Shown one piece after another: positions 3,635 to 17,838 of a DNA stretch of 64,000 nucleotides (the first letter of the stretch is position 1; each line of letters begins with the position of its first letter). Both the position numbers and the translations under genes were made by a program. Under the pieces are notes generated by a model that was not told where the DNA came from, did no database searches, and saw nothing but the letters and a program-made list of their open reading frames with translations. Source of the stretch: Clostridia bacterium (GTDB taxonomy: Bacteria > Bacillota > Clostridia > Oscillospirales > CAG-272); contig JAFTYE010000016.1 in assembly GCA_017464805.1 (NCBI GenBank), positions 1 to 64,000 of the forward strand, in the 5' to 3' direction.

Positions 3635-3674
3635 GCAACCGGCCTTGCCGTTTCGCAAGGTCGGTTGCTTTTTG
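3635..3674 (+). terminator. rho-independent terminator after smpB
   Basis: GCAACCGGCCTTG pairs with CAAGGTCGGTTGC and is followed by TTTTTGTTTT. Confidence 0.9.
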
Positions 3675-3716
3675 TTTTGCACCAACCCTTCTTTGGTGGT
3701 GTAAAATTTATTTTGA

Positions 3717-3745
3717 TTGACTTGCCCAAAAGAACATGTTATACT
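3717..3745 (+). promoter_or_regulatory. promoter of the esterase-like gene
   Basis: TTGACT (3717-3722), 17-base spacer, TATACT (3740-3745). It leaves a leader of about 120 bases before the ATG at 3873, which contains a GGGGGGCC run but no riboswitch that I recognise. Confidence 0.75.
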
Positions 3746-3872
3746 GGAAGTAACGGAAGTTATCCGAATTCATCGGGGGGCCTGTCTTTTCGACCCCTTT
3801 CAGATTATTGTCCTCCGCACCAAATCGGGTTCGGATGACTTCTGTTACCCTGAAGAAAAAACGGAGGTCTTA

Positions 3873-6371
3873 ATGGAAGAACAAAAACTTGGTATGTATA
3901 AAACGGGAAGTCAGGCGGAGCTTGTTTTGCAGGTAAATGCCTTGGAATCGGAGCACCCCATTGATGCGGAAGAAACCCAGCTTCCTTCCTCTTTTTATGA
4001 AAAAATCCTCAGATATATGGATGGAAAGGATGAGCATGGGGTGACCTGCTTCCGCAAGCAGGGGACTTACGGCCCCATCATTCCGAACAGCCCAAAGGCA
4101 CAGCTTCTTTTCTTTGCGGTTGAAAGCAAGAGGGACACGCAGCTTGTCATGTTTACTTATAATGAAAGAAGACATAAATTTTGGTTGAACGGCGAATTCA
4201 TCGGCGTTGATTTTGCAAGATCGTTGTATACACTTTCGCTCCGTGCGGGTAAGAACTGCTTTGTGTTCGAGTATCTGCCAAACGAGGGAGACTCCGAATT
4301 TCAGGTTCGTCTGAATCTCTTGGAAAATGAGATGAAAAACGAATATACCTCCTATGTACGGAACAATTTCTATACACAGTATAATAGGGCGGTTCTTTGG
4401 GAATATGAATATCACTGGAATAAGCCGGATCCGTTCCGTTTTATGCTGACGGCGCAGGATCATCTCCATGTGGATATCGGGCAGATTTGCAAAATAGAAG
4501 TTCTTGAATACGACGACAAAACTCCGATTTACGCAGACAGCGTATCGTTTTATCAACCATATCGGGTGGATATGTCGCGCTTTGCGGGAAATAAGCGACT
4601 TCTGCGCCTGAAGATCTACTATTATGACACAGCGGGTGTTATGTACACGATCACGCGCGTATTCTTCTTTGGTGATGTGGACGCCGCTTCGGATACTCTG
4701 CAGGGAAAATATCACGAAGCACTGGAGGATGCGTCGTATTCCGAGGAAGAGCACTTGTTTTTGCGCCAAGAGCTTACAAGATATTCCGCAAGAAGGGCAC
4801 AAAATCGTCTGACAGGCATGGATGTTTTTATGCTTGCCGATACATACGCCACAGTCGTTTCGAAAAGATATATCAAGCGTCTTTCCTCTCCCGGTTGGGT
4901 TCCGATCTATTACTATTCCAAAATGGATCAAAAACTGCATAACTACGCCGTTTGCTTGCCTCTCGACTTCGACCTGCAAACCTCCTATCCACTGCTGCTT
5001 CGTTATGAAACGCTCAACAATGCTCCCACTACCCCCATGTATGCAATTGGTCTGCGGGGGATGATCGTGGTAGACGTTCCCTTGCGAGGCATCACGCTGG
5101 GGAGCTATTGTGGCGATGCTTCCTTCCGAGAGGTCCTTTTGGATGTGAAGAGGCGCTACCGTATTGACGAAAGCCGTATTTATGCCGCCGGCTACTCCAA
5201 CGGCGCGTACGCCACATGGTCATTGGCGCAAGCGTATCCCTCGGTGTTTGCTGCTATTCTTCCTTATGCGGGCGGTATGGACACCCAAAAGATCAAAAAC
5301 CTGTACAACCTCCCAATCCTTCGTGTGGAATCGGAGGGGGATCATCGGTACCGAAGAGAGGGGAACCGATATACGTCCGGGCTGAAAAGGTGTAAAAGCT
5401 ATCGGTTGGTGAGAGCAGACGCCTGTACGCATCCCTCGCTTGAGTTTATCACACTCAATTCACAGATGCTTCATCTACTGCAAACATTCAAAAAGGAGAA
5501 TTATCCCGATAAAATTCGTTATCGGACGGATAAAAACAGGCACTTGGAGGCTTATTGGATCAAGCTCCATTCCATCGCCCCCTCCAAGGCTTATGCCGAG
5601 GTAAAGGCATCTGTGGAGGATGGCAATATCCGCATAAGTGTTCAAAACGTCACTGGTATCACAGTGAAAATTCCCCCGCAGGCAAATCGAGATCGCGGTT
5701 TTGTGTTCATCAATCGCAAGCCGATTACTCCCCTTTCGGAGATCCGAGAGTCGTACGCTCACTTTGTCAGAACACCACGTGGCTTTGTCAGAACGGAGGA
5801 AGCGGCACCTTGTAAGATTTATCACGGCGCAGGTCTTTTGGATATTTTCATGGATCGGATGCAGATCATCAATTGTGACATCGATCCGACCATGCAAAGG
5901 GTTGCCTCGATGTTCTCCCACCCCCAGATGAATACGTACAAGCACACATTGGATGTGGCATATCCCATTCTGTCCTTGGAGGACGTTGATCCTGCTATGA
6001 TGCAGGAGAGTGACCTTGTGATCGTGGATGCCAACCGAGATGCTCCGCTCCTTCGTCAACTCCGGGAAGGTTGTCCTATTCCAATGGATGCCGAGGGCTT
6101 TCATTATGCAGGTTCCTCTTACAGGGGAAAGTATTGTATTATGCAGATTTTCCAAAATCCCATTTGTCCTCATCATAATATTCTGTATATCAATGCCAAC
6201 GACCCTGCGTTGTACGCAAAGAATCTGTTCACAAGAACCCTTATCATCCCCACCTATACCAACGGACGGCATCCTTTCTTGAATAATGAGGCACTTATTT
6301 TCTTTAATGGAAAGTATTATACCGTCTTTGATGCCGTAGCCAAGGATTCGATGCGTCCGCTCAATGGATAA
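3873..6371 (+). CDS. large multidomain protein with an alpha/beta-hydrolase domain
   Basis: 832 residues, starting at the ATG behind ACGGAGGT. The central part carries an esterase-type nucleophile elbow, G440-Y-S442-N-G444, after a YRIDESRIYAAG strand and before LAQAYPSVFAAILPYAGG, as in feruloyl esterase and PHB-depolymerase-like hydrolases. About 380 residues before it and 270 after it match nothing I know; the N-terminal part looks rich in beta strands. No signal peptide is visible, so it is probably cytoplasmic. It lies directly upstream of the RiPP-type operon and has similar base composition, but its own promoter and the repeat array at 6391-6442 separate it. A role in that pathway is speculative. 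Confidence 0.7.
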   Translation: MEEQKLGMYKTGSQAELVLQVNALESEHPIDAEETQLPSSFYEKILRYMDGKDEHGVTCFRKQGTYGPIIPNSPKAQLLFFAVESKRDTQLVMFTYNERRHKFWLNGEFIGVDFARSLYTLSLRAGKNCFVFEYLPNEGDSEFQVRLNLLENEMKNEYTSYVRNNFYTQYNRAVLWEYEYHWNKPDPFRFMLTAQDHLHVDIGQICKIEVLEYDDKTPIYADSVSFYQPYRVDMSRFAGNKRLLRLKIYYYDTAGVMYTITRVFFFGDVDAASDTLQGKYHEALEDASYSEEEHLFLRQELTRYSARRAQNRLTGMDVFMLADTYATVVSKRYIKRLSSPGWVPIYYYSKMDQKLHNYAVCLPLDFDLQTSYPLLLRYETLNNAPTTPMYAIGLRGMIVVDVPLRGITLGSYCGDASFREVLLDVKRRYRIDESRIYAAGYSNGAYATWSLAQAYPSVFAAILPYAGGMDTQKIKNLYNLPILRVESEGDHRYRREGNRYTSGLKRCKSYRLVRADACTHPSLEFITLNSQMLHLLQTFKKENYPDKIRYRTDKNRHLEAYWIKLHSIAPSKAYAEVKASVEDGNIRISVQNVTGITVKIPPQANRDRGFVFINRKPITPLSEIRESYAHFVRTPRGFVRTEEAAPCKIYHGAGLLDIFMDRMQIINCDIDPTMQRVASMFSHPQMNTYKHTLDVAYPILSLEDVDPAMMQESDLVIVDANRDAPLLRQLREGCPIPMDAEGFHYAGSSYRGKYCIMQIFQNPICPHHNILYINANDPALYAKNLFTRTLIIPTYTNGRHPFLNNEALIFFNGKYYTVFDAVAKDSMRPLNG

Positions 6372-6390
6372 TTATTTTCGTAAAAATCGG

Positions 6391-6442
6391 ATAACAACCC
6401 CAAAATCAACTACCGTTGATAGAAAAACAACCGTTGTTATCT
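6391..6442. promoter_or_regulatory. nested inverted repeats upstream of the XRE regulator
   Basis: GATAACAAC (6391-6399) is the exact reverse complement of GTTGTTATC (6434-6442). Between them lie ATCAAC-TACC-GTTGAT (6406-6421) and AACAAC-C-GTTGTT (6427-6439). The arms overlap, so alternative pairings are possible. Several copies of an AACAAC/GTTGTT-type half-site suggest an operator for the XRE protein at 6495, or alternatively a terminator-like structure after the hydrolase gene. Confidence 0.55.
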
Positions 6443-6494
6443 GTATTTTTGTGTCGAAACATTGTAAAATGTAAGTGAAGAAAGGAAAAATCCT

Positions 6495-6917
6495 ATGGTA
6501 AAAGATTCCATATTGGGATTAAAAATTGCGTATTATCGTCGGCTTTGTGGAATGACACAGGAGGAGCTGGCGGAGCGAATCGGTGTTTCCGCACAAGCCG
6601 TTTCCAAATGGGAGCAACAGGTTAGTTGCCCTGATGTTTTGCTACTGCCTCGTCTGGCAAAGATTTTTGGAACAACTATTGACGAGTTGTTCGGTGTTCT
6701 ATCACCCAAGGAGGCAATATATAGACATCTGAAAGACGTGCCGTGGCAGGATGACGAAAAAATTCGAATTGCCGTATATGATGGACAAAAACTTTTAGAG
6801 CAAAGCTCATATGAGGTAGTGGAAGGCGTGAACGTGATAGATGTACAATTTCATGGCCATCCCTTTAACATCAGCGGTGTTTTCAAAATAGTCTGTACGG
6901 AAAACGGTCAGAATTGA
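6495..6917 (+). CDS. XRE-family regulator heading the RiPP-type cluster
   Basis: 140 residues. Residues 8-65 are a Cro/C1-type helix-turn-helix (MTQEELAERIGVSAQAVSKWE). Residues 80-140 form a small domain of unknown type, perhaps beta-rich (KIRIAVYDGQKLLEQS). The gene has a GAAAGG ribosome site and sits just after an inverted repeat array that could be its operator. A terminator-like hairpin separates it from the biosynthetic genes, so it may set their expression by read-through or by acting on the array. Its ligand is unknown. Confidence 0.85.
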   Translation: MVKDSILGLKIAYYRRLCGMTQEELAERIGVSAQAVSKWEQQVSCPDVLLLPRLAKIFGTTIDELFGVLSPKEAIYRHLKDVPWQDDEKIRIAVYDGQKLLEQSSYEVVEGVNVIDVQFHGHPFNISGVFKIVCTENGQN

Positions 6918-6934
6918 ACTGATGGAACAAACGG

Positions 6935-6976
6935 GTGTATTCCTTTCTTTCAAAGTAGGAATACACTTGTTTTTTT
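6935..6976 (+). terminator. terminator or attenuator before the biosynthetic operon
   Basis: GTGTATTCCT (6935-6944) pairs with AGGAATACAC (6957-6966), followed by TTGTTTTTTT. The next ribosome site, GGAGGT, begins directly after the T run, so downstream genes depend on read-through or on an unseen promoter. Confidence 0.8.
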
Positions 6977-6986
6977 GGAGGTAGAT

Positions 6987-7274
6987 ATGAAATGGATGCA
7001 AAATGAGGCCTTTTTGGCCGAAGAATTTTCGGATGGAGAGTTGCTTCTTTACGACGCAGAACGCGAGGTGTATCATATTTTGAATAGCTCGGCCACCAAG
7101 GCATTTCGCTTGATTGTGGCGAACGGTTATGACAGAGCCAAGGGGGTGTATACCGCGTGGGTCCGTCAAATAGCTCCTAACCTCTCTGCAGAAATTGCGG
7201 CAGAGGATTTTGACGGCATTTTTCATGATCTTACGGAAAAGGCGATCATATTGCAAGGTAATACAACAGTATGA
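6987..7274 (+). CDS. PqqD-like RiPP recognition protein
   Basis: 95 residues. The pattern of an early acidic strand, DGELLLYDAEREVYHILNSSATKAF, followed by helices, matches the PqqD/RRE family (PF05402), stand-alone winged-helix proteins that bind the leader of a precursor peptide and deliver it to modifying enzymes. The ATG at 6987 follows GGAGGT; an in-frame TTG 12 bases upstream would overlap that site. The next gene encodes a probable precursor and the one after it a radical SAM enzyme, the usual clients of PqqD proteins. Confidence 0.88.
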   Translation: MKWMQNEAFLAEEFSDGELLLYDAEREVYHILNSSATKAFRLIVANGYDRAKGVYTAWVRQIAPNLSAEIAAEDFDGIFHDLTEKAIILQGNTTV

Positions 7275-7323
7275 CACCTGTTTTTGCAAATAAAAACATT
7301 CTTCAAGGAAGGGAGGTGAAACG

Positions 7324-7488
7324 ATGGCCTATACCAGACCCACGGTGATGAGCTTCTCCAAGGAAGACGTGAAGAAAAATATTCTCGCTTCTGCTACCTG
7401 TCAGAATGCATACTGCGCAAAAGGTGACACCTTTGTATGCGGTAAGGAAGTTGCATATGTTTCCGCAGCTCCGGATGAAATAATCTAA
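7324..7488 (+). CDS. probable RiPP precursor peptide
   Basis: 54 residues, preceded by GGGAGGTGAAACG, one of the strongest ribosome sites in the block. The N-terminal part has Y3-T-R-P6-T-V8, close to the YxxPxL motif that lasso-type leaders use to dock on recognition domains. It is followed by a charged stretch (SKEDVKKN) and ILASA, a plausible leader end. The C-terminal part holds three cysteines, C26, C31 and C39, and ends in DEII. It sits between the PqqD and radical SAM genes. Peptide and modification are inferred; no homologous family is recognised. Confidence 0.8.
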   Translation: MAYTRPTVMSFSKEDVKKNILASATCQNAYCAKGDTFVCGKEVAYVSAAPDEII

Positions 7489-7534
7489 AAAGCAGATCAG
7501 ACTGTTGTATTACACCAGCCGAGGAAGGGGACGT

Positions 7535-8584
7535 ATGTATAACTTTTCATTTGAAAGCATGTATCTTGAAATTACGTCATTTTGCAATAGAAGCTGCCCG
7601 TATTGCTATAACGACTCCGACTGCACAGGTGACTATTTGCCCAAAAGCGTGATTGCAAAGTTGCTTGCAGAATGCAAGAGTAAGAGTATTGACTATCTCA
7701 CCATATCCGGCGGTGAGCCATTTTGCCACCCGGAAATCAATGAGATACTTGAGGAGCTTGCACGACTTCACATGCGGGCCATGATTATTTCGAATCTGTC
7801 CACGCTCTCGAGAGAGAGGATGAAGGAGCTGCTTGTCGCAGGATACTCTATACAAGCTACATTGGATTCCTGCGATGCGGAGAAAAACGACATCACCCGC
7901 GGACAGGGCAGTCATCAAGCGGTCATGGAGCTGCTCTCCGTGGCACACGAGATCGGGAAGATCAATAAAATAGCCCTTCGGTTTAATATTTCCAAGGATA
8001 ACGTATCGGAAATTGAGGAGATGATCGAATTCGCGATCGCAAGGGGCATGCCGCTTTTGAATCTTGCACTGCTCACGAGGTCGGGGCGTGGCACGAATTT
8101 TGCCGCAGTATACGACTACAATACGGATATTTTGGATCTGGCACGGCTGATGCACCGATTTGTCGAGCTGCAACAGGCCTATGAGGGACGAATACGCTTG
8201 CGATTCCCGGATCTGAAAGAACAAGTGGGCTGTGCGTTGTATGCCGACGGGGAGATCAGCCTGTCGCCCAAGATCTCTCCTGATGGAAATGTGTATTTTT
8301 GTCAGCTGTTTTCGGGTGAAGAAAATTCGCTAGGCAATATCAAGCACCAATCTCTTGCGGATGTTTTGAATTCGGAAAAAGCACACGGTGTTGCCGAGAG
8401 GGTGAGAAAGCGCAAAGACATGCAAAAGGATTGCGTCGGTTGTCAGTTTACGGAATTTTGCATGTGTGGCTGTCCTGCCGTATCGGTCAACCAAACCGGT
8501 AGCCTGTACGAAAAGGACGACCAATGTGCCATGATTAAATTCTTCATGAAAGAAAAGATCAAGCAAATGTGCACGATGCTATGA
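7535..8584 (+). CDS. radical SAM/SPASM peptide-modifying enzyme
   Basis: 349 residues. C17-x3-C21-x2-C24 binds the radical SAM cluster (SFCNRSCPYCYND), ISGGEP is the SAM-binding motif, and the C-terminal end has a SPASM-type set of cysteines (VYFCQLF, KDCVGCQFTEFCMCGCP) for auxiliary iron-sulfur clusters. Such enzymes make thioether or carbon links in ranthipeptides, sactipeptides and related RiPPs. The chosen ATG follows GAGGAAGGGG; an upstream in-frame TTG adds ten residues of low value. Likely substrate: the cysteine-containing peptide 47 bases upstream, presented by PqqD. Confidence 0.92.
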   Translation: MYNFSFESMYLEITSFCNRSCPYCYNDSDCTGDYLPKSVIAKLLAECKSKSIDYLTISGGEPFCHPEINEILEELARLHMRAMIISNLSTLSRERMKELLVAGYSIQATLDSCDAEKNDITRGQGSHQAVMELLSVAHEIGKINKIALRFNISKDNVSEIEEMIEFAIARGMPLLNLALLTRSGRGTNFAAVYDYNTDILDLARLMHRFVELQQAYEGRIRLRFPDLKEQVGCALYADGEISLSPKISPDGNVYFCQLFSGEENSLGNIKHQSLADVLNSEKAHGVAERVRKRKDMQKDCVGCQFTEFCMCGCPAVSVNQTGSLYEKDDQCAMIKFFMKEKIKQMCTML

Positions 8585-9075
8585 ATATGCGGGAAATTGT
8601 ACGGCAGAACAAAAATTCTGACGCCATGCTCACACAGATACGGGCGACCAAGCAGATCTGCCTCGCGGGTGAGAGCATGTTGCCGAGCTTGGATCCCCAA
8701 AGCATACAGACGCTCTTTATCTCGGAGCCGGAGCAATACCGCGTAGGCGATGTTGTGGTGTTTGCCTATGATCGAAGCATCGTGGGGGTGTCGGTACATC
8801 GGATCGTGCGAGTGGACACGGATACCGTTATCACCAAGGGAGATAACAATTTTCGTTGTGATGACGACATCTCCAAGCGTGCGCTCATCGGTAAGGTCGA
8901 AAAGGCGCTTTTGCAGAATTTTCGGGTTGTTGCGGTAGCCTCATCCAAGAGGATTGCCCGCCTTTCCTTATGGGAGGACCGACTGTCGAGAAGGCTCGGT
9001 CGCGGAATGCAGGCGCGACTGCACGCCTTGCTTGTTAAAATGTATTGCCGGATTTTGAAAAAAGGGGATAAGTGA
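8581..9075 (+). CDS. S26/S24-like peptidase, possible leader protease
   Basis: 164 residues. G30-E-S32-M-L-P carries the nucleophilic serine, RVGDVVVFAYD is the next conserved box, and VH73RIVRV followed by TKGDNN places a histidine where the SipW/ER-type signal peptidases have it instead of lysine. There is no membrane anchor, so it is probably cytoplasmic, unlike a true signal peptidase. The ATG overlaps the stop of the radical SAM gene (ATGA); an ATG 12 bases earlier is also possible. Such peptidases recur in RiPP clusters and may remove the leader. Confidence 0.8.
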   Translation: MNMREIVRQNKNSDAMLTQIRATKQICLAGESMLPSLDPQSIQTLFISEPEQYRVGDVVVFAYDRSIVGVSVHRIVRVDTDTVITKGDNNFRCDDDISKRALIGKVEKALLQNFRVVAVASSKRIARLSLWEDRLSRRLGRGMQARLHALLVKMYCRILKKGDK

Positions 9076-9078
9076 GTC

Positions 9079-10878
9079 ATGAGGCGGTGTATCAAAAATA
9101 TTATATCCGGATTGAAATTTCAAATCAGATACACATATTATTCCTTGAAGAAATGGCCCTTTATCATTCTGCTTTATCTGCTTTGTATTGGTTTGCCGGG
9201 AATGCTGGAGCCGGTGGAGGTCTATTTTCAAAAGGAAATCGTTGCAGGCGTGACAAGATATGTTGGTATGGGGGAGATGACCGCCACGCTTCTTTTGTTC
9301 CTTTTGGTCACGGTATTGCTCTCCTTTCAGTCCTATGCTTCCCCCATTGCCCAAAATATTGTAGGCTTGAAGGTTGCCTCCTGGATAGAAGGGAAGATAT
9401 ATCGAAATGTTCATCATCTTCCTCTGGAGTTTTTGGATTCTGCAGACGATCAGGTCAAAATAGACCGCGCCAAGCAATCCATCGTTCACATTTCAAGCGG
9501 CCCCGTGTTTTTGATGTACAGTCTTTCCTATCTGGTTTCTCTGCTGATTCCCACTATTCAACTCATGCAATATCCAATCCTCCTGGTTGCGTACTATGTG
9601 TCCGGGCTGATTGCGGCCGTTGTCGATGTGCGTCAGAAGCAAAAGGCCGAGGAGCTTCGTAAGAGCATCGAGGTGGATAAACGAGCACTGCGATATTTCA
9701 GTAGTCTGCTCGGCTCCAAGGATGTGATGATCGAAAGCAGGGTGCACGGATACGGAGAACACTTTTACCGCAAGTGGGAGAACCTAACACAAACCTTTTT
9801 CGAAAAGCAGATTCGGTTGAAAAAGCAACAGGTGAGGGAAAGCCTTGGTGTGTCCGTTCTCCAACAGCTTATTGGAATTGTGCCGATAGGAATCCTTTAT
9901 TTTTTGATCGTTGACCGCACGGTGGATGTGGCCACGTATACCCTCGTTACGGGAATGGGGGGAATTATCACGCGCTATATAGGATATTTGTTCAATGCAT
10001 ATTCCAAAAGTGCGCAATCCGGCATTTATATCGATGATATGGAAGAGGTTCTGAACTTTGTGCCTCCGAAGAAGCAACAGCTCGTTGCTAACCGGAATCA
10101 TCCCATCGTCAGCATGAATGACGTTTCCTTTCACTATGTAAAGGACAAACCGGTTCTTCGGGATATTCATTTTGAAATAAACGAAAACGAGATCGTAGCT
10201 ATCGTGGGGGAAAACGGATCGGGTAAAACAACGCTTTCTCTGCTTGCGCTCGGACTGTATAAGCCTAAAGCAGGTACGGTCGCGGTGTACGGTCATGACA
10301 TAACAGGTGAAGAATTCGACCTGCGCGGCATCATAAGCCCTGTCTTTCAGGATTATACAAGATATGAGTTCACGGTCAGAGAAAATATCGGCTATGGAGA
10401 TCTTGATGCCATCCGGGATGATGACAGGCTTGAGGGTGCTATGCTTTCCGGTGGATTTAAGGGTATATATGATAAACGCGGTATGACGCCGGAAACCTTT
10501 TTGGGCAAACAATATGAAACGGACGGAGAAGAGCTATCCGGTGGTGAATGGCAGCGTGTTGCGATCAGCCGCGGCATTTTTGGCAATGCGGGGCTTATCG
10601 TGCTGGACGAGCCCACCGCTTCGCTTGACCCTATCAGCGAGATCCGTCTGTTTACCCATATCAAAAACAGCCTGCACGGTCGAGCCGCCGTTATTGTTTC
10701 TCACCGTATCGGTATCTGTAAATTGGCCGATAGGATCGTTTTCATGAAACAAGGAAGAGTTGTGGAAAGTGGCACGCATGCGGAGCTGTATACCATGAAG
10801 GGCGAATATTATCGCTTTTTCATGGAGCAATCAAAATGGTATGATTGGAGCGATACGGATGAAAAAGGCGAAGCCTGA
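9079..10878 (+). CDS. ABC exporter half-transporter (permease-ATPase) 1
   Basis: 599 residues. An N-terminal membrane domain (about 1-320, six helices) is fused to an ATPase with Walker A GENGSGKTT, signature LSGGEWQRVAISRG and Walker B LIVLDEPTASLDP, followed by a switch histidine in VSHRIG. There is no peptidase C39 domain, so leader removal must be done by another protein. It overlaps the second half-transporter by 20 bases; the two probably form a heterodimer that exports the product. Confidence 0.93.
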   Translation: MRRCIKNIISGLKFQIRYTYYSLKKWPFIILLYLLCIGLPGMLEPVEVYFQKEIVAGVTRYVGMGEMTATLLLFLLVTVLLSFQSYASPIAQNIVGLKVASWIEGKIYRNVHHLPLEFLDSADDQVKIDRAKQSIVHISSGPVFLMYSLSYLVSLLIPTIQLMQYPILLVAYYVSGLIAAVVDVRQKQKAEELRKSIEVDKRALRYFSSLLGSKDVMIESRVHGYGEHFYRKWENLTQTFFEKQIRLKKQQVRESLGVSVLQQLIGIVPIGILYFLIVDRTVDVATYTLVTGMGGIITRYIGYLFNAYSKSAQSGIYIDDMEEVLNFVPPKKQQLVANRNHPIVSMNDVSFHYVKDKPVLRDIHFEINENEIVAIVGENGSGKTTLSLLALGLYKPKAGTVAVYGHDITGEEFDLRGIISPVFQDYTRYEFTVRENIGYGDLDAIRDDDRLEGAMLSGGFKGIYDKRGMTPETFLGKQYETDGEELSGGEWQRVAISRGIFGNAGLIVLDEPTASLDPISEIRLFTHIKNSLHGRAAVIVSHRIGICKLADRIVFMKQGRVVESGTHAELYTMKGEYYRFFMEQSKWYDWSDTDEKGEA

Positions 10879-12634
10879 TCGTCGGGCCATCAAGGCCCTG
10901 CTGAAAATCGGAAAAGGCGAGAAAACAAGGGGCAGAATCCTTGTCTTCTTTCTCGCTGCTGCTGTGGCAACTCTTGTTTCTCCGGTTCTCTCGTATCTGT
11001 CGAAGCTGATCGTGGATATGTTAAGCGACACCTATATCTCGGGTAGCACGGAACACAGCACGGCACTTTTTGCGGTGGCGATTGCAATCATGGTCTTGGC
11101 GATTCTGTCCTTTGCCTTCCATAAGGTCAAAGAGATGGAAATGATCTATATCAATCATGAGACCACAAAACGGATCAATACGTACATCTACGATAAATTA
11201 AGCAGAATACGCTGCGAGTATTACGAGGATGCCAAAACCTACGATACGATCACGCGTGTTTCGGCCAATTGCCCCGGCATCTATTCGATCCTGAATTCTC
11301 TTATCACACTGGCAATGGCCGTGGTATCGACTGTATCCTACGGCTTGTTGCTCGGTTCGATTCGTTGGTATTTCATCCTGCTGATCCTGTTCCCCAATGC
11401 TCTCTATGTTTGGCTGGAATCCAAAAATTTGTTTGACCGTTATTTTATGGAGATCGGACAGACAAAGGATAAGAGAAGACTGAATTATATGCATACCCTC
11501 TTTCGGGACAAAAAAACCAACAAGGAGATCCGCGCCTTCGGTCTTTCGGATTTTCTGATCGCCAAATATGAGGCGCTGCGTATCAAGCTTCACAAGCAGG
11601 GCACTCGCCTGCTGATGAAGCAATCCATCCTTTCTTTTTGTCTTGTGGTCTTGTCCAAGATCGGCCTCTTCGCTTGCCTGTTCATCGTGTGTGTGAACTG
11701 TATGCAAGGGACTGCCTCTGTCGGAGATATCACCCTGGTGATCAGCGCGGGTGCGGCCTTCGCCGCTTCCTTCGGGAACATTTTCGCACAGGTAAACAGC
11801 ATCACGGGAAAGGCCGTGTACTCCAATGATTTCGCGGCATTCGAGGCAATGAAATGTGAGGAGAGCGACAAGGCGGATATGCCCCTCTTTGAGACGCTTC
11901 GCTTTCGTGATGTTTCCTATCGGTATCCCAATGCCAAGGAGTTGGCTCTTGAGGGCGTATCCTGTGAGATTAAAAAAGGAATGACGGTCGCCTTGGTGGG
12001 AGAGAACGGATCCGGAAAAACGACCTTTACCAAACTCATGCTGGGAGCCTTGCATCCATCCGAAGGGGAGATTGCCGTCAATGGAGAGCTCCTGTCTGCA
12101 CTTTTGCACGGCTTCCGTCAGCGCATCTCATATATCCCGCAGAGCTACGGAACCTTCAAAATGACGCTGGAGGACAATCTGAGGCTGGGCAAGAACGATA
12201 TTGATCTCGAACAATATGAGCCGCGTTTCATCAATTTCCACGATAAGCTGCCCGAAGGGTATGCCACCCCCTTGGGCAACGTGTATACGGGCGGTGTTGA
12301 CCTGTCCGGCGGAGAATGGCAAAGGATTTCCATTGAAAGGGCTTTGATCCGTAATGGCTCGGAAATTTACGTTATGGACGAGCCGGCGGCATCCCTTGAT
12401 CCGCTTATGGAATCCGAACTCTATGAGTACTTTATGAAGATCTTGAAGGGGAAGACTCTGGTCATCACCTCGCATCGCTTGGGGGCATGCTCTTTGGCCG
12501 ACCATATATTCGTTTTTGATCAAGGCAAGATCGTGGAGCAGGGCTCGCACGATAGCTTGATGAAAATGCGAGGAAAGTATTACGAGATGTACACCGCACA
12601 AAGAAGCCTCTACGAAAGGAAAGCTGCCTCATGA
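10859..12634 (+). CDS. ABC exporter half-transporter (permease-ATPase) 2
   Basis: 591 residues with the same plan: six membrane helices, Walker A GENGSGKTT, signature LSGGEWQRISIERA, Walker B IYVMDEPAASLDP. The ATG at 10859 has GGAG eight bases upstream; an ATG at 10841 is in frame but worse placed. The partner half-transporter is directly upstream. The stop overlaps the next start (ATGA), so expression is translationally coupled. Confidence 0.93.
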   Translation: MKKAKPDRRAIKALLKIGKGEKTRGRILVFFLAAAVATLVSPVLSYLSKLIVDMLSDTYISGSTEHSTALFAVAIAIMVLAILSFAFHKVKEMEMIYINHETTKRINTYIYDKLSRIRCEYYEDAKTYDTITRVSANCPGIYSILNSLITLAMAVVSTVSYGLLLGSIRWYFILLILFPNALYVWLESKNLFDRYFMEIGQTKDKRRLNYMHTLFRDKKTNKEIRAFGLSDFLIAKYEALRIKLHKQGTRLLMKQSILSFCLVVLSKIGLFACLFIVCVNCMQGTASVGDITLVISAGAAFAASFGNIFAQVNSITGKAVYSNDFAAFEAMKCEESDKADMPLFETLRFRDVSYRYPNAKELALEGVSCEIKKGMTVALVGENGSGKTTFTKLMLGALHPSEGEIAVNGELLSALLHGFRQRISYIPQSYGTFKMTLEDNLRLGKNDIDLEQYEPRFINFHDKLPEGYATPLGNVYTGGVDLSGGEWQRISIERALIRNGSEIYVMDEPAASLDPLMESELYEYFMKILKGKTLVITSHRLGACSLADHIFVFDQGKIVEQGSHDSLMKMRGKYYEMYTAQRSLYERKAAS

Positions 12635-13464
12635 TCGGTTTTAAGATGTACAGCCCGTGTTGCCGTTGGTACTTGGAAATACGTACGGATTGCGGCGAGG
12701 TTGCCCGACTTATAGAAGGTCTCTTCGGGGGCTTTCTCGTGTCCGAAAAGCCCCATCGGGAAGACATCGAGGCTCTGCATGTCTTGATCATAAAGGAAGG
12801 GGACGGGTATTTGATGATGGGGCGGAATAAAACCTACACCATAAAAAACTTACCGAGTGTGGGATTTTATATATACGCCGTTATCGATAAGCTTATTGAG
12901 GGACATATGGACGATCGCTTTTGCGTGTTTCATGGCGGTGTGATTGCCCGTGACGGGGCGGCTCTTTGTATCTTGGCACCCACCATGACGGGGAAATCTA
13001 CTATGATTGCCCATTTTTCGCTCAACGGCTACGATTATCTCGCAGATGATTATATCTTTATTGACAGAAGCCGAAAAACCATATGCCCTGTACCCATGCC
13101 GGTGGCATTGAGGAGCACGGCCTTTTTGGGAGATTCTCTCAACGGGCACTTTCTGACCTCGGGCTTCAATGAGCTGCGAGGTGAGGATATCACCCTGCTC
13201 AATTTGTTTGATGAAGAAAGCCAGAATGGCTGCGAGTATATCGCGCAAAATGTATTGCTGATTCATCGCACGGATGAGAACAAGCTGCTCGAAATGAGCC
13301 GGGGAGAAACCTATAAGGAGCTCCTGTTCAATATGAAGCGGGCTGTTGATTTTGAAAGAGATGCGCGAGCTATCGGCGGCTATGCCAACGAGTTTTCGGG
13401 CTACAGACTGTTGTATAGCAGCTTTGCGTATGCCGCAGAATGCTTGGAACAAATCCTTTTTTAG
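12631..13464 (+). CDS. HPr kinase-like P-loop protein
   Basis: 277 residues. The Walker A is A116-PTMTGKS-123, with FHGGVIARDG before it and LADDYIFID after it, the layout of HPr kinase/phosphorylase C-domains (PF07475) in their stand-alone RiPP-cluster form. In paeninodin-type lasso clusters such kinases phosphorylate the C-terminal residue of the peptide. Here the peptide ends in Ile and no lasso cyclase is present, so the target is unclear; S47 of the precursor is one option. The gene is coupled to the exporter by an ATGA overlap. Confidence 0.8.
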   Translation: MIGFKMYSPCCRWYLEIRTDCGEVARLIEGLFGGFLVSEKPHREDIEALHVLIIKEGDGYLMMGRNKTYTIKNLPSVGFYIYAVIDKLIEGHMDDRFCVFHGGVIARDGAALCILAPTMTGKSTMIAHFSLNGYDYLADDYIFIDRSRKTICPVPMPVALRSTAFLGDSLNGHFLTSGFNELRGEDITLLNLFDEESQNGCEYIAQNVLLIHRTDENKLLEMSRGETYKELLFNMKRAVDFERDARAIGGYANEFSGYRLLYSSFAYAAECLEQILF

Positions 13465-13490
13465 GGTTAACGGCCATGAGGAAATAGATC

Positions 13491-14390
13491 ATGCTTGCAC
13501 ACGAGCTTTACACAACAGAGAGAAAAATACTGTATAAAGAAATCGAGTCGATCTCCGGGGATCTTTGTGCCGTCCCGTATGCGGTCATCAAGGGGGAAGC
13601 TCTTTCACAGCAGATATACGGTGTAACGGACAGGCGACGCTCCGGTGATATAGATATTCTGATCGACAAAAGCAACGTAAAAGCCCTTGAAGAATTTTTG
13701 CAAAAAAACGGCTTTAGGCAACAGGTACCACAGCGTTCGGGTGGCGAAAGACTCCACAGAATTCTTTGTATGGCCTATTCTCATCAGATTCCGTCCTATC
13801 ACAAGGATAAGCTCGGCTTTCACCTCAATGTCGATGTCAACTACGATATATTTTGGGGCGAATATGAGGGGCAGAGATGCTCTATGGCGGAATTCTTGTG
13901 CGATACCGAGGAGACGTATATTTACGGCGTTCGCGTCAAAACGCTTTCCTTGGAAAAAGCCTTTTTGCAGTTGATCTTGCATCACTATAAGGAAATGAAT
14001 TCGCTTTATCATCTGCATCACTATAACTGTATTCGAACCGACCTGTTTCGGGATATTCACGACATGCTGATTCTCCGAAAGGAGTGCTTGACAGTGAAAA
14101 CAGTCGTGGCTCTTGCTCACAAATATGCAATCGGTGGGATTATGTATTATATGCTTTTTTACACAGATCGCGTATTCCCGGGAGAGCTGGATGCGTATCT
14201 TCTTGCGTTGGAGGATAAGCGGGAGGAGGCGATCATGGATAGCTTCGGCCTTTGCTCCAAGGAGCGAAAGGTATGGAGAATTCCGTTTGAAAAACGCCTC
14301 GATAACGATGAAATATGGTCGCACGTCAAGGATGAATTGACCGAAGCGGATCTGCGAAAGGTCGAACGCAATGCCTATGTGTTTACGTAA
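13491..14390 (+). CDS. uncharacterised nucleotidyltransferase family protein
   Basis: 299 residues. The segment VIKGEALSQQIYG followed by RRSGDIDILID is the signature of the PF14907-type nucleotidyltransferases (G-S/G-x9-DxD), with the acidic pair binding metal. These proteins accompany HprK-like kinases and S24/S26 peptidases in lasso-like RiPP clusters; their reaction is not known to me. The start at 13491 has only a weak ribosome site (GAGGAAAT). Confidence 0.8.
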   Translation: MLAHELYTTERKILYKEIESISGDLCAVPYAVIKGEALSQQIYGVTDRRRSGDIDILIDKSNVKALEEFLQKNGFRQQVPQRSGGERLHRILCMAYSHQIPSYHKDKLGFHLNVDVNYDIFWGEYEGQRCSMAEFLCDTEETYIYGVRVKTLSLEKAFLQLILHHYKEMNSLYHLHHYNCIRTDLFRDIHDMLILRKECLTVKTVVALAHKYAIGGIMYYMLFYTDRVFPGELDAYLLALEDKREEAIMDSFGLCSKERKVWRIPFEKRLDNDEIWSHVKDELTEADLRKVERNAYVFT

Positions 14391-14399
14391 AGGGGAAGC

Positions 14400-14954
14400 A
14401 TGGACGAGCTGTTAAATATCCGAACGGAAGGTTATATGAATGTCGGCAATCCTGTGGGCTATGCCGAATACGATGCAACGCCGTATTCAATCCTTGAAAA
14501 AATGGTACAAGCTTATCCGTTTGCCCCCGAGGATTGCTTTGTCGATTTCGGTTGCGGAAAGGGGCGGGTGATCTGCTTCGCTGCCAATCACGGCTGTCAA
14601 AATGTGATCGGTGTAGAGTATAACGATCAGATATATCAAGCACTGTCCGAAAATGTGGTCGGGAGTCGGCAACGGGCGCATATTCGCATTGTTCACGGAA
14701 GAGCGGAAACGTTGGAAATCGACCAAAGGCTCAATAAGTGCTTTTTTTACAACCCCTTTTATCTGAAGTATTTCATCAAGATATATAACAATATCATGAA
14801 TTTCTCCCGCGCAAAGAGCGTGCTGCTGTTTATGTACGATGCTGCCGAAGAATATCGGCGGTTTTTGAATCGACAGAAGAATGCTGTGTGCGAGAGCCGT
14901 ATCCGGGACCGTGACAGCATGCGAGAATTGCTGGTTTATCGCGTAAGCAGGTGA
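14400..14954 (+). CDS. class I SAM-dependent methyltransferase
   Basis: 184 residues. Motif I is V48-DFGCGKGR-56 and motif II VIGVEYND, with YNPFY near the position of a catalytic motif. The fold is that of class I (Rossmann) methyltransferases; N-, O- or peptide substrate cannot be told. It starts 9 bases after the nucleotidyltransferase, with GGGGAAGC upstream, and is followed four bases on by a VOC gene, so it belongs to the operon. Confidence 0.85.
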   Translation: MDELLNIRTEGYMNVGNPVGYAEYDATPYSILEKMVQAYPFAPEDCFVDFGCGKGRVICFAANHGCQNVIGVEYNDQIYQALSENVVGSRQRAHIRIVHGRAETLEIDQRLNKCFFYNPFYLKYFIKIYNNIMNFSRAKSVLLFMYDAAEEYRRFLNRQKNAVCESRIRDRDSMRELLVYRVSR

Positions 14955-14958
14955 TGAA

Positions 14959-15336
14959 GTGAAGCTGCATCATATGGGAATTATTGTAAAGGACATCCAG
15001 AAAGCCATCGCCATGTATCGCGCTATGGGATATACATTGGAAAAAGGCCCTGTGCTCGATCACATTCAAAACAATGTGATTGCGTTCTTGTGCGGGCCCT
15101 CCCCACGTATGGAATTGATCGAACCTTTGGGAGAACAATCCAGCGTGTATCACTTCAAGGCGGGGTATCATCACATGTGTTACGAGGCTGAGGAGGGAGA
15201 ACATATCCTGCAGGCATTTCGCTCGATGCAGGTCGGCAAAATCTTCACGCCTCCGATCGTCGCGCCGGCACTTGGCGGAAGAGAGGTCGCGTTCGCCTGC
15301 CTGCAAAATGGGACGTTTGTGGAATTCATATTGTGA
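14959..15336 (+). CDS. VOC (glyoxalase/epimerase) family protein
   Basis: 125 residues. The HHMGIIVKDIQKAI opening, YHHMCYE in the middle and GTFVEFIL at the end give the His/His/Glu metal ligands of a vicinal oxygen chelate fold, nearest to methylmalonyl-CoA epimerase-like members. The start is GTG at 14959. It stands directly before an acyl carrier protein and an FkbH-type enzyme; VOC, ACP and FkbH genes travel together in some glyceryl-ACP systems, so it may act on a carrier-bound three-carbon unit. That role is inferred. Confidence 0.8.
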   Translation: MKLHHMGIIVKDIQKAIAMYRAMGYTLEKGPVLDHIQNNVIAFLCGPSPRMELIEPLGEQSSVYHFKAGYHHMCYEAEEGEHILQAFRSMQVGKIFTPPIVAPALGGREVAFACLQNGTFVEFIL

Positions 15337-15348
15337 CAGGGAGACAAA

Positions 15349-15606
15349 ATGATGGAAGCCATGGAAGAGAAGATATTGAAAATATTGAATGATATGGAGG
15401 GGCTTTCGGTTTCTTCCGATCAAAGGGATGAGAATTTGCTGGATCTGGGCATGGACTCGATTATGTTCATTCAGATCATCGTGGCACTGGAGGACGAATT
15501 CCACTGTGAAATTCCCGATGAAAAGCTGCTAGTAACAGAGATGGATACGCTGCAAAAGATGTTGGATGTGCTTTGCGCATCGCTTCAGGTGCAGGCCGTT
15601 TCGTAA
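15349..15606 (+). CDS. acyl carrier protein
   Basis: 85 residues, acidic and helical, with the phosphopantetheine attachment motif LDLGMDS37IMF. GGGAG precedes the ATG; a second ATG three bases on would also work. It lies just upstream of an FkbH-type enzyme, which in other clusters loads a phosphoglycerate-derived glyceryl group onto such a carrier. It is not the fatty-acid ACP judging by its place and sequence. Confidence 0.9.
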   Translation: MMEAMEEKILKILNDMEGLSVSSDQRDENLLDLGMDSIMFIQIIVALEDEFHCEIPDEKLLVTEMDTLQKMLDVLCASLQVQAVS

Positions 15607-15626
15607 AGCAGGGAAGGGAGACGAAT

Positions 15627-17162
15627 GTGGGCGATAAAATCGTATTGATCTCAAATATAGCGTTGGAACCGTTTTTACGCAAGCGTCCGATCATATCCTC
15701 CGATGTTGCATTCGTATTCGTTCCGTACGAGGAACTCGAAGCATCGTATGATGTATTTCAAAATGCAGATATGGTGGTTTTTTTCCTAAATTTTGATGCC
15801 CTATATCCGAACGCCATCAACGAAATGCTCTCCAAAAGACTGGAGGTAGAGGATATTGCAACGGATGCCCTAACAAGGTATCGCACGCTTCTGTCTTCCG
15901 TGAAAACCGCAACCAACGCAAAGATCATATGGTTCGGCTTTGAGGATTATGGCTATGATACCGATATCGTATGCGGCCATGTCCCGGTGTTGGATGGTAT
16001 CGTGGATCGGGTCAACGGTCTGATAAAAGAGGAACTTTCCGGAGAGGATGTGTACCTGGATCTTAAATCCATGATCGCTGAAAACGGTATCTCCAAGGCG
16101 TACAGTCGGAAAAATAAGCATCGGTGGGGCGTGCCATATTCACAGGAGTTCGTCACACAAATCGCCGTGGAGCTCGACAAGCAATATTCGATCCATCACG
16201 GAAAAACGAAGAAATGTCTGGTACTGGATTGCGACAATGTTCTTTGGGGAGGCATCCTGTCAGAGGACAAAATCGGCGGAATAAATCTTGGCAGCTCCGG
16301 AACCGGGAGAGAATTTCAGGATTTTCAGCGTTTTTTGGTGACGCTGTATTATCACGGCGTCATTCTCGCTGTATGCAGCAAAAATGACGAAGCAGACGTT
16401 TTGCGGGTTTTTCGTGAGCATAGCGGTATGCTTCTGCGTGAGGAGCATATTGCATGCTTTTTGTGCAATTGGCGTGATAAGCCTCACAACATTCGTGCTA
16501 TTGCGGATAAGCTCAATATCGGAACGGAAAGCATGGTTTTTGTTGACGATTCTCCCTTCGAGATAGAAGGGGTCAAGGCACTGTTGCCGGAGGTGGAGGC
16601 CGTCCTGTATGACCGGGATTCTGTTTTTGAAGGATTGCGCTGCTTTTGCTTGAGATCGGGGGGAAACAATGCCCCTTCTTCCCATCGAACGGAAATATAT
16701 AAAACAAATGAAAAGCGAGAGGCATTGCGGGTGAGCTGCTCTTCCTTGGAGGAGTATATCGCTTCGCTGCATATGAAGCTGGATATACATGTCGGAAAAG
16801 AATCGGAGCTCGGTAGGCTCTCCGAGCTCACGCAACGAACCAACAGGTGTACGAACGGAAAACGATATACACGAGAACAGCTCCGTGACAAGCTCTGCGC
16901 TTCGCCCTATAAGCTTTATTCGGTGTCCTTGTCCGATAGATTTTCCGATTTTGGCATTGTAGGGGTGATCGGCCTGTGCGAAAAAAATGTGGATCTCTTT
17001 TCGCTTTCCTGTCGAGCCCTTGGCAGAAAAATAGAAGATGATATGATCGGATTTTCCAAGGCAAACGGTGCCGAGTCGATTTCCTTTTTCGCAACCTCCA
17101 AAAATGCAGCGCTCTGCGAAATGCTGGAAGCATACGGCCTGACAGTCAATGCTTTTGTCTAA
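15627..17162 (+). CDS. FkbH-like HAD-IIIC enzyme (glyceryl-ACP type)
   Basis: 511 residues from a GTG behind GGGAG. The central HAD domain has D201-x-D203 (VLDCDNVLWGGILSED), AVCSKNDEADV, NWRDKPHNIRAIA and FVDDSPFE, the FkbH signature set. The N-terminal 190 residues form a partial SGNH-like domain and the C-terminal part (ELTQRTNRCTNGKRY) the usual FkbH tail. FkbH enzymes remove phosphate from 1,3-bisphosphoglycerate and load D-glyceryl onto an ACP. The expected ACP is next door, but no ketosynthase, dehydrogenase or acyltransferase is present to use it. Confidence 0.88.
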   Translation: MGDKIVLISNIALEPFLRKRPIISSDVAFVFVPYEELEASYDVFQNADMVVFFLNFDALYPNAINEMLSKRLEVEDIATDALTRYRTLLSSVKTATNAKIIWFGFEDYGYDTDIVCGHVPVLDGIVDRVNGLIKEELSGEDVYLDLKSMIAENGISKAYSRKNKHRWGVPYSQEFVTQIAVELDKQYSIHHGKTKKCLVLDCDNVLWGGILSEDKIGGINLGSSGTGREFQDFQRFLVTLYYHGVILAVCSKNDEADVLRVFREHSGMLLREEHIACFLCNWRDKPHNIRAIADKLNIGTESMVFVDDSPFEIEGVKALLPEVEAVLYDRDSVFEGLRCFCLRSGGNNAPSSHRTEIYKTNEKREALRVSCSSLEEYIASLHMKLDIHVGKESELGRLSELTQRTNRCTNGKRYTREQLRDKLCASPYKLYSVSLSDRFSDFGIVGVIGLCEKNVDLFSLSCRALGRKIEDDMIGFSKANGAESISFFATSKNAALCEMLEAYGLTVNAFV

Positions 17163-17211: not shown

Positions 17212-17247
17212 AAAGCCATAAGGCAGTGCCTTTTGGCTTTTTTTTCA
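17212..17247 (+). terminator. terminator closing the RiPP-type operon
   Basis: AAAGCCATAAGGC pairs with GCCTTTTGGCTTT, followed by TTTTT. It marks the end of the operon that begins at 6987. Confidence 0.88.
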
Positions 17248-17335
17248 TGCTTCTTGTCGAATTCCGGGTACGCCTTGTTTCTATTGTCGGATGTAGATGA
17301 TAAAATTTTCTCCGTTTGTGTTTGGAAGGAATTGT

Positions 17336-17605
17336 ATGCGAAATAAAATAGAACGGATATTAAAACAGGAACTTCGGATACTCACATTGAGAACGAGGGA
17401 ACGAAAGAATCTTACACAAAAGGAGATGTCGGAACTTTTGTCCATGAATGAAAAATCTTATTCGGATATTGAAACAGGGATGTATAAGTGTGGAACGGTA
17501 ACATGCATTTTGTTATTGATGATGCAGGACGACCCGAATGCTTTTTTGAAAGAGTTAAAAGAAAAATTCGAAAAATTATATCATAAGGAGATGCAACTGA
17601 TATGA
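17336..17605 (+). CDS. small XRE-type helix-turn-helix protein
   Basis: 89 residues. LTQKEMSELLSMNEKSYSDIETG (about 30-54) is a Cro/C1-type helix-turn-helix, flanked by basic and then acidic/basic helices. The ATG follows GGAAGGAATTG; an earlier in-frame ATG lacks a ribosome site. It overlaps the next gene by ATGA. This looks like a compact two-gene cassette inserted between two terminators. Confidence 0.8.
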   Translation: MRNKIERILKQELRILTLRTRERKNLTQKEMSELLSMNEKSYSDIETGMYKCGTVTCILLLMMQDDPNAFLKELKEKFEKLYHKEMQLI

Positions 17606-17838
17606 GTTGGGTAACGTATGGAGTTTCCGAAGAGGTATATACATCGGCAACGAATAGAAGAACATCTTATGGCATCGTTGCTTATGCGGAAGATGAATCT
17701 ATAAGTACCATCGTGGCTTCGTTTCGGGACGTATCCTCGGATAAGGAAAAGGTAGAGCAATTCGTTGGATTATGCAATCGGATGAAGCTTTCTCTGGATC
17801 ATTTTTCCGATGCCGTTGAGGATTTTATAGCGAAATAA
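17602..17838 (+). CDS. DUF6514-family protein
   Basis: 78 residues. The pattern SYGIVAYAEDESISTIVASFRDVSSDKEKVEQFVGLCNRMKLS followed by HFSDAVEDFI matches DUF6514, small proteins of unknown function in Clostridia. It is translationally coupled to the upstream XRE gene. Confidence 0.7.
   Translation: MSWVTYGVSEEVYTSATNRRTSYGIVAYAEDESISTIVASFRDVSSDKEKVEQFVGLCNRMKLSLDHFSDAVEDFIAK

Follow-up and report, generated by a model that had tools for sequence, protein, structure and literature searches.

A run of twelve close-set genes, all on the plus strand, was found at positions 6987-17162 of the window, by which we mean the whole analysed stretch of 64,000 nucleotides from contig JAFTYE010000016.1 of a Clostridia bacterium (GTDB lineage Oscillospirales; CAG-272). 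The run combines genes typical of a ribosomally synthesized and post-translationally modified peptide (RiPP), including a candidate precursor, a recognition protein and a radical S-adenosylmethionine (SAM) enzyme, with genes for FkbH and an acyl carrier protein (ACP). Our reading, with a probability of about 0.6, is that these genes encode one RiPP pathway: the PqqD-like recognition protein and the radical SAM/SPASM enzyme would form thioether links at the precursor cysteines, and a glyceryl unit loaded by FkbH would reach the peptide via the cluster's own ACP.

Gene content of the run

The genes lie in the following order.

6987..7274, plus strand: PqqD-like stand-alone RiPP recognition element, 95 aa, assigned from its predicted fold
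7324..7488, plus strand: precursor peptide, 54 residues; leader 1-24, core from T25; Cys 26, 31, 39; homologs P0174-P0177
7535..8584, plus strand: radical SAM/SPASM enzyme, 349 aa; CNRSCPYC at 17-24; PF04055 81.5 and PF13186 37.3 bits; family A1
8587..9075, plus strand: S26/S24-like serine peptidase; GESMLP at 28, VHRI at 70, KGDN at 84
9079..10878, plus strand: ABC half-exporter 1; NCBIfam match; Walker A and LSGG
10841..12634, plus strand: ABC half-exporter 2; PF00005 84.5 and PF00664 56.1 bits
12631..13464, plus strand: HprK-like kinase; His101, Lys122, Asp139, Asp140; TIGR04352
13491..14390, plus strand: PF14907 nucleotidyltransferase-like protein; D53-x-D55; PF14907 71.3 bits (cut-off 31.2)
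14400..14954, plus strand: class I SAM methyltransferase; Pfam scan; motifs DFGCG, NPFY
14959..15336, plus strand: VOC protein (glyoxalase family); PF13669 48.8 bits (cut-off 27)
15349..15606, plus strand: ACP; PF00550 49.4 bits (cut-off 20.8); GMDS attachment site, DSI at 36
15627..17162, plus strand: FkbH (HAD-IIIC), 511 aa; TIGR01686 231.5 bits (cut-off 146.65); LDCDN at 200-204

From the PqqD-like gene to the FkbH gene the gaps are 49, 46, 2, 3, -20, -4, 26, 9, 4, 12 and 20 bases, the second ABC gene being counted from the later ATG at 10859, its likelier start. No gap thus exceeds 49 bases, two are overlaps, and the genes most likely form one operon for a ribosomal peptide. Every gene of the plus-strand set named in the earlier note is present. 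The radical SAM/SPASM, PF14907, VOC, ACP and FkbH identities are firm, whereas the PqqD-like protein has no domain match and the S26-like and HprK-like proteins score below the curated cut-offs.

FkbH beside RiPP genes in other genomes

The neighbourhood was surveyed by tblastn, with a reach of 12 kb and reference proteins taken partly from the clusters themselves. The survey covered 106 loci, each with a relative of the radical SAM enzyme at its centre; named genomes supplied 80 (the best of 182) and whole genomes 25, and the window makes up the total. A search of the class gave 20 places outside the window's own genome, 12 of which were taken into the survey. HprK-like and S26-like genes both occur within 12 kb in 16 of the 106 loci. 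FkbH lies within this distance in nine of these 16 loci and in none of the remaining 90 (one-sided Fisher P 3.5e-9 on the assumption of independent loci, which these are not fully). The counts are 7/9 against 0/36 when loci with less than 8 kb on either side are set aside, and 9/15 against 0/91 with a coarser gene finder; tblastn moved L115 into the group with HprK and S26. The positive loci are the window, L111, L113, L116, L117, L152, L175, L177 and L200. On these counts a chance neighbourhood of the FkbH branch was rejected.

FkbH genes accompanied by radical SAM, HprK-like, S26-like and PqqD genes recur in further genera and families within the order; L200, which also carries a YcaO gene, extends this by one genome to a different order of the class. 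This is the recurrence that the earlier note had taken as the sign of one pathway; the constant separation of FkbH from radical SAM genes, which it had named as the contrary observation, was not seen. When the order was searched from the FkbH side, 37 of 216 genomes had a match; of the four places read, L268, L269 and L270 sit by radical SAM genes and L271 does not. The order PF14907-ACP-FkbH is the same in L147, L200, L268, L269 and the window, where the methyltransferase and VOC genes stand in between. FkbH adjoins PF14907 in L111, L113, L117, L152, L175, L177 and L270, and is separated from it in L116. The L268 locus contains radical SAM, PF14907, ACP and FkbH genes, a weakly matched HprK-like gene, and a protein with a GATase_7 match below the cut-off (21.1 of 25 bits); GATase_7 is a domain carried by asparagine synthetases.

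It is very likely that close kin of the window cluster share the linkage of precursor, radical SAM and FkbH genes, because the database proteins P0174 (precursor, 69% identity), P0003 (radical SAM, 60%) and P0145 (FkbH, 50%) agree in a longest contig of 14,982 bases, although this link consists of equal longest-contig sizes and not of a contig that was read. Precursor-radical SAM pairs likewise match at 3,947 and 2,130 bases.

Of 57 FkbH proteins compared in a tree, those of the 12 cluster-embedded loci and of the three partial clusters L145-L147 group with P0145 (counted as embedded solely through its matching longest contig) and P0052 on a single branch (SH-aLRT 95). The other 40 FkbH loci fall outside it, so that a single label change suffices (0 of 500 shuffles were as low). 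The tree was built by a quick method and has some long branches; for 23 of the 40 outside rows only some 1.5 kb of flanking sequence was considered. It leaves out two of the 26 FkbH places in a sample of 146 genomes of the family (G132:C16 and G023:C27) and eight of the 40 places from the order search, for which there was no locus; L247 and L251 duplicate the genes of L271 and L270 and were omitted. A more careful tree of 37 rows agrees on the loci (branch support 100/95) and places the window FkbH within the cluster-associated clade.

Alternatively, the FkbH-ACP branch could serve another product, for instance by acylating a surface glycan or lipid, and be merely adjacent to the RiPP genes or co-transcribed with them. 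FkbH indeed occurs often in the family, namely in 24 of 146 genomes, and a VOC gene lies by FkbH in the polysaccharide-type locus L149. We consider this explanation improbable, given the 9/16 and 0/90 counts, the position of the 40 FkbH loci without such clusters outside the cluster-embedded clade, and the presence in L152 and its near-copy L177 of a fused ACP-FkbH gene inside a kinase-peptidase-radical SAM-PF14907 run.

Several further features of these loci were observed. L147 looks decayed: at 4173-8920 it retains FkbH, ACP, PF14907 and ABC genes with no radical SAM match, and a short open reading frame at 8744-8920 resembles, by eye, the start of an S26 gene. On the contig of L113 a single protein that joins a weak S24/S26-like match to a radical SAM domain (3654-5273) adjoins the FkbH-ACP cluster of L269. 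MutS domain V proteins are encoded next to these clusters in L200 (12981-14486), L269 (990-4197, two adjacent) and L112 (4967-6418); their neighbours in L200 and L112 look alike.

Precursor, enzymes and proposed pathway

The 54-residue precursor is predicted to be cut after A22-S23-A24, giving a 30-residue core, and ends in Ile-Ile. Three queries (from the window, L002 and L114) were compared with 5.8 billion proteins. Nine of 15 candidates had E up to 1: the window's own protein, near-copies of the L002 and L114 queries, and six further ones. P0174-P0177 are 67-69% identical to the window precursor and share with it the pattern ILASATCQNAYCxKGD[TS][FY]xCG, the position of Ser47 and the end PDEII. 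All nine aligned precursors keep the three cysteines and have an aromatic residue two positions ahead of the last; seven residues separate the second from the third. The first two are spaced by four residues in seven proteins and by six in P0178 and P0179. The first core cysteine is preceded by ASA or AGA in eight of the nine and by SAS in P0171; residues of the ASA/AGA type before the core fit the rule for signal-peptidase-like cleavage.

Sister loci encode eight shorter peptides whose alignment with the precursor covers the leader. They form a family of 36-39 residues with K.W..P in the leader, an alanine-rich site (AAA, ASA or VAA) before [WYK]-S, one core cysteine and a C-terminal Arg (L112 3634-3753, L113 11663-11773, L116 3168-3287, L146 1164-1280, L152 15040-15159, L176 6562-6672, L177 13087-13203, L178 5642-5752). 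In seven of the eight loci the gene adjoins that of a regulator of about 350 aa (the one scanned has an HTH_20 domain), and the peptides look like signalling peptides or RiPP precursors with a regulator of their own.

No match to the 95-aa PqqD-like protein was obtained in the Pfam and NCBIfam scans, and comparison of its profile with PDB sequences gave nothing useful. Its predicted fold resembles the B1 recognition protein of lasso peptides, a match that speaks to fold and not to function. Alignment of the PqqD-like trio with S26-PqqD fusions by hhalign gave a weak 55% probability. A second PqqD gene of the genome (G000:C1:7180-7389, locus L001; PF05402 61.7 bits) lies far from the window.

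Both the radical SAM and the SPASM domain of the maturase candidate score above the Pfam cut-offs, as in sacti- and ranthipeptide maturases. The radical SAM match begins at residue 12, and in place of the fused N-terminal recognition element that is usual, though not universal, in those maturases there is the separate 95-aa protein. The best solved relative of the profile is 5wgg/5why (E 5.7e-18), which we take to be CteB; by its structure title, 5why is a thioether maturase. In viral contigs and plasmids only distant relatives were found. It is possible, though unlikely, that within the same single pathway, with the glyceryl branch unchanged, the enzyme makes a carbon-carbon or ether link between side chains, or changes a single residue, in place of a thioether. 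PqqE (6c8v) is also among the solved structures matched, and the kept Phe/Tyr two before Cys39 might be a link partner. PqqE works with a stand-alone PqqD and forms a carbon-carbon bond (PMC8326336). The thioether is favoured by the 5wgg/5why match, by the invariant second and third cysteines and the kept first one (spacing 4 or 6) in the nine precursors, and by the top NCBIfam model, a sactipeptide maturase, although its 101.1 bits are far below the cut-off of 625.

The motif residues of the S26-like peptidase are kept in five relatives, the H-K-D-D residues of the kinase are invariant in six of six aligned proteins, and D53 and D55 of the PF14907 protein in seven of seven. Searches of PDB sequences with the HprK and PF14907 profiles gave nothing useful. 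The features of the kinase/nucleotidyltransferase pair of lasso tailoring, namely the H-K-D-D residues and the PF14907 domain, are thus present, with the kinase below the NCBIfam cut-off. By analogy, the S26-like protein is a candidate leader peptidase and the HprK-like one a candidate peptide kinase. Lasso kinases with H-K-D-D residues phosphorylate a C-terminal Ser, and the addition of hexoses to the phosphate in pseudomycoidin requires PsmN, whose annotation is that of a nucleotidyltransferase (PMC9266682).

FkbH scores above its curated cut-off and adjoins an ACP with a serine attachment site, as expected of a glyceryl-ACP branch. FkbH makes glyceryl-ACP, whose fates include hydroxymalonyl-ACP and tetronates (PMC7489565), and FkbH-derived glycerate enters a peptide assembly line (PMC10099666). 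Glyceryl-ACP might therefore be handed over for further building, for instance into a hydroxymalonyl or tetronate-like unit, so that the peptide would receive a larger acyl group. Both documented fates and the location of the methyltransferase and VOC genes within the FkbH branch fit this possibility; it is nevertheless very improbable, as the Pfam and NCBIfam scans of the operon proteins revealed no dehydrogenases or FabH-like enzyme of the kind used in the methoxymalonyl and tetronate pathways. The VOC protein matches PDB 2qh0, labelled lactoylglutathione lyase (E 1.9e-14), methylmalonyl-CoA epimerase 3rmu (E 7.4e-6) and TIGR03081 (44.8 bits, below the cut-off of 114.95); because of the distant alignment with methylmalonyl-CoA epimerase, we guess that it may epimerise the carrier-bound unit.

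The PF14907 protein is a candidate acyltransferase for the glyceryl unit because PF14907, ACP and FkbH stay grouped in L147, L200, L268 and L269. Among the proteins scanned for PF14399 (the BtrH type), only that of L117 is above the cut-off, with sub-cut-off matches in L200 and L177. The 317-355-aa proteins by FkbH in L145, L146 and L152 were considered as BtrH-like acyltransferases, but hhalign against the L117 protein gave 0.8% and so no support.

The favoured single pathway would proceed as follows. The PqqD-like protein, judged by its modelled fold, may hold the leader while the radical SAM enzyme works on the motif C-x4-C-x5-[FY]-x-C, presumably forming thioethers. The S26-like peptidase would cut after the A22-S23-A24 site and free the core. 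By analogy, the HprK-like kinase might phosphorylate a Ser or Thr, the kept Ser47 being a candidate, and the PF14907 protein might attach a further group to the phosphate, in the manner of PsmN in pseudomycoidin. FkbH and the ACP, from their family function, would convert glycolytic phosphoglycerate to glyceryl-S-ACP. Epimerization by the VOC protein and methylation by the methyltransferase, of the glyceryl unit or of the peptide, form the weakest step. The glyceryl unit would then pass to an amine or a hydroxyl of the core, possibly through the PF14907 protein, and the product would leave the cell through the two ABC half-transporters.

Besides the indirect contig link, several observations weigh against this pathway. 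FkbH was not found in seven of the 16 loci with HprK and S26 (L115, L176, L178, L202, L010, L011 and L018, some on short contigs). The methyltransferase and VOC genes, which the earlier note had counted as part of the set, occur in none of the 111 other loci searched with them by tblastn. VOC genes stand next to FkbH in L149, L271 and L264, all outside the clade, a hint that FkbH and VOC may form a separate pair. Eight database FkbH proteins of unknown neighbourhood fall inside the clade in the 37-row tree, and for this reason its devotion to such clusters is not established. The S26-like peptidase has 45.2 bits with TIGR02228 (cut-off 51.85) and the kinase 46.3 bits with TIGR04352 (cut-off 200), and the roles of these two and of the PF14907 protein are drawn by analogy. 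The lasso kinases described in PMC9266682 target a C-terminal Ser, whereas the present precursor ends in Ile-Ile. No PF14399 match was found in the genome, which is 92% complete.

As to the neighbours of the FkbH-VOC pairs themselves, those in L149 are of polysaccharide type, and L271 and L264 have short flanks.

A broader proposal, to which we give slightly less than even odds, is that these loci represent a new RiPP class of wide occurrence in Clostridia-type bacteria. A RiPP-dedicated FkbH clade would take a three-carbon glyceryl unit out of glycolysis, place it on a carrier of its own and pass it to a peptide that bears radical cross-links, a phosphate and a nucleotidyl or sugar tag, so that lasso-type tailoring, radical chemistry and carrier-protein acyl chemistry would meet in a single pathway. 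If this is right, there is an FkbH line proper to ribosomal peptides that equips a radical-crosslinked peptide with a small acyl group derived from glycolysis; this combination was not found in the literature searched. The substrate is defined (54 residues, a predicted cut site and a cysteine motif) and the small enzyme set is open to testing. The FkbH, PF14907 and HprK genes could serve to find related clusters that would be scattered by a search for one class at a time.

Regulators and relation to known systems

The run is flanked by the following elements.

6495..6917, plus strand: XRE-family regulator; HTH_3 57.5 bits; upstream of and outside the twelve-gene run
17220..17232, plus strand: terminator-like hairpin downstream of FkbH, from the terminator scan
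17297..17838, plus strand: XRE gene and DUF6514 gene with a 4-base overlap; PF20124 39.8 bits

The earlier note had placed the cluster at 6495-17162. Its end at FkbH holds, but 6495-6917 is the regulator and the run starts with the PqqD-like gene. The two are split by a 9-bp hairpin with a T run at 6935-6976, read directly from the sequence; its 14-base loop is beyond the limit of the terminator scan, which gave 23 sites in the scanned stretch against 11.2 expected. Immediately 5' of this XRE gene, 3717-6371 encodes an 884-aa protein with a weak prolyl-oligopeptidase/esterase match. The downstream DUF6514 gene is the only such match in the genome. An XRE gene overlapping a DUF6514 gene occurs in the window and in L111, L116, L117, L152, L175, L176, L177 and L178. 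DUF6514 is present in 90 of the 146 genomes of the family sample and lies within 10 kb of six of the seven radical SAM/HprK/S26 clusters there (L115 lacks it). The pair is probably a cluster-associated regulator pair.

No characterised cluster with the same gene set, which the earlier note had asked after, was found in open-licence PMC papers. The combinations of FkbH, radical SAM and RiPP, and of HprK, nucleotidyltransferase and lasso peptide, were likewise not found in the open-licence literature (subscription papers and preprints lie mostly outside this search), where PF14907 or NTP_transf_5 is not named. Judged by title, the four papers with FkbH and 'ribosomally synthesized' include none on such a pathway, and the one with FkbH and lasso peptide is a genome survey. 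The RRE-Finder paper (PMC7470986) reports lasso-type recognition proteins next to radical SAM enzymes; its main text contains none of the terms kinase, nucleotidyltransferase, acyl carrier or FkbH.

The system resembles ranthi- and sactipeptides (CteB/SCIFF, thuricin, ruminococcin C) in its radical SAM/SPASM maturase nearest to 5wgg/5why, its cysteine-bearing precursor and its recognition fold. It differs in the separate recognition protein and in the additional kinase, PF14907 protein, S26 peptidase and FkbH-ACP pair. The precursor has three cysteines in 54 residues and not the six in forty-five residues of SCIFF peptides, and SCIFF identity was rejected.

With Firmicute lasso peptides (paeninodin, pseudomycoidin) it shares the B1-like recognition protein, the HprK-type kinase with H-K-D-D residues and a protein of the nucleotidyltransferase family, PsmN being likened to it by annotation. 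The lasso link drawn in the earlier note is upheld by this predicted fold and by L268, with its HprK-like and sub-cut-off GATase_7 proteins. Unlike lasso clusters, the operon has a radical SAM enzyme instead of a cyclase, and the precursor lacks a C-terminal Ser. Neither an asparagine-synthetase cyclase nor a B2 leader protease was matched among the operon proteins in Pfam and NCBIfam (ABC 1 and FkbH by NCBIfam only, ABC 2 and ACP by Pfam only). A plain lasso cluster was rejected, as no cyclase is seen in the operon.

FkbH above the curated cut-off with an adjoining ACP is common to the glycerate pathways of methoxymalonyl-ACP, tetronates and the vioprolide/corramycin glycerate, whereas here the operon has no polyketide synthase (PKS), non-ribosomal peptide synthetase, dehydrogenases or FabH-like enzyme, and the partners are RiPP enzymes. 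Goadvionins and lipolanthines are carrier-acylated RiPPs, in which a long-chain acyl group from a PKS or fatty acid synthase is placed on a ribosomal peptide. The present system would be like them in joining a carrier-bound acyl group to a ribosomal peptide, the predicted group here being a C3 unit from FkbH.

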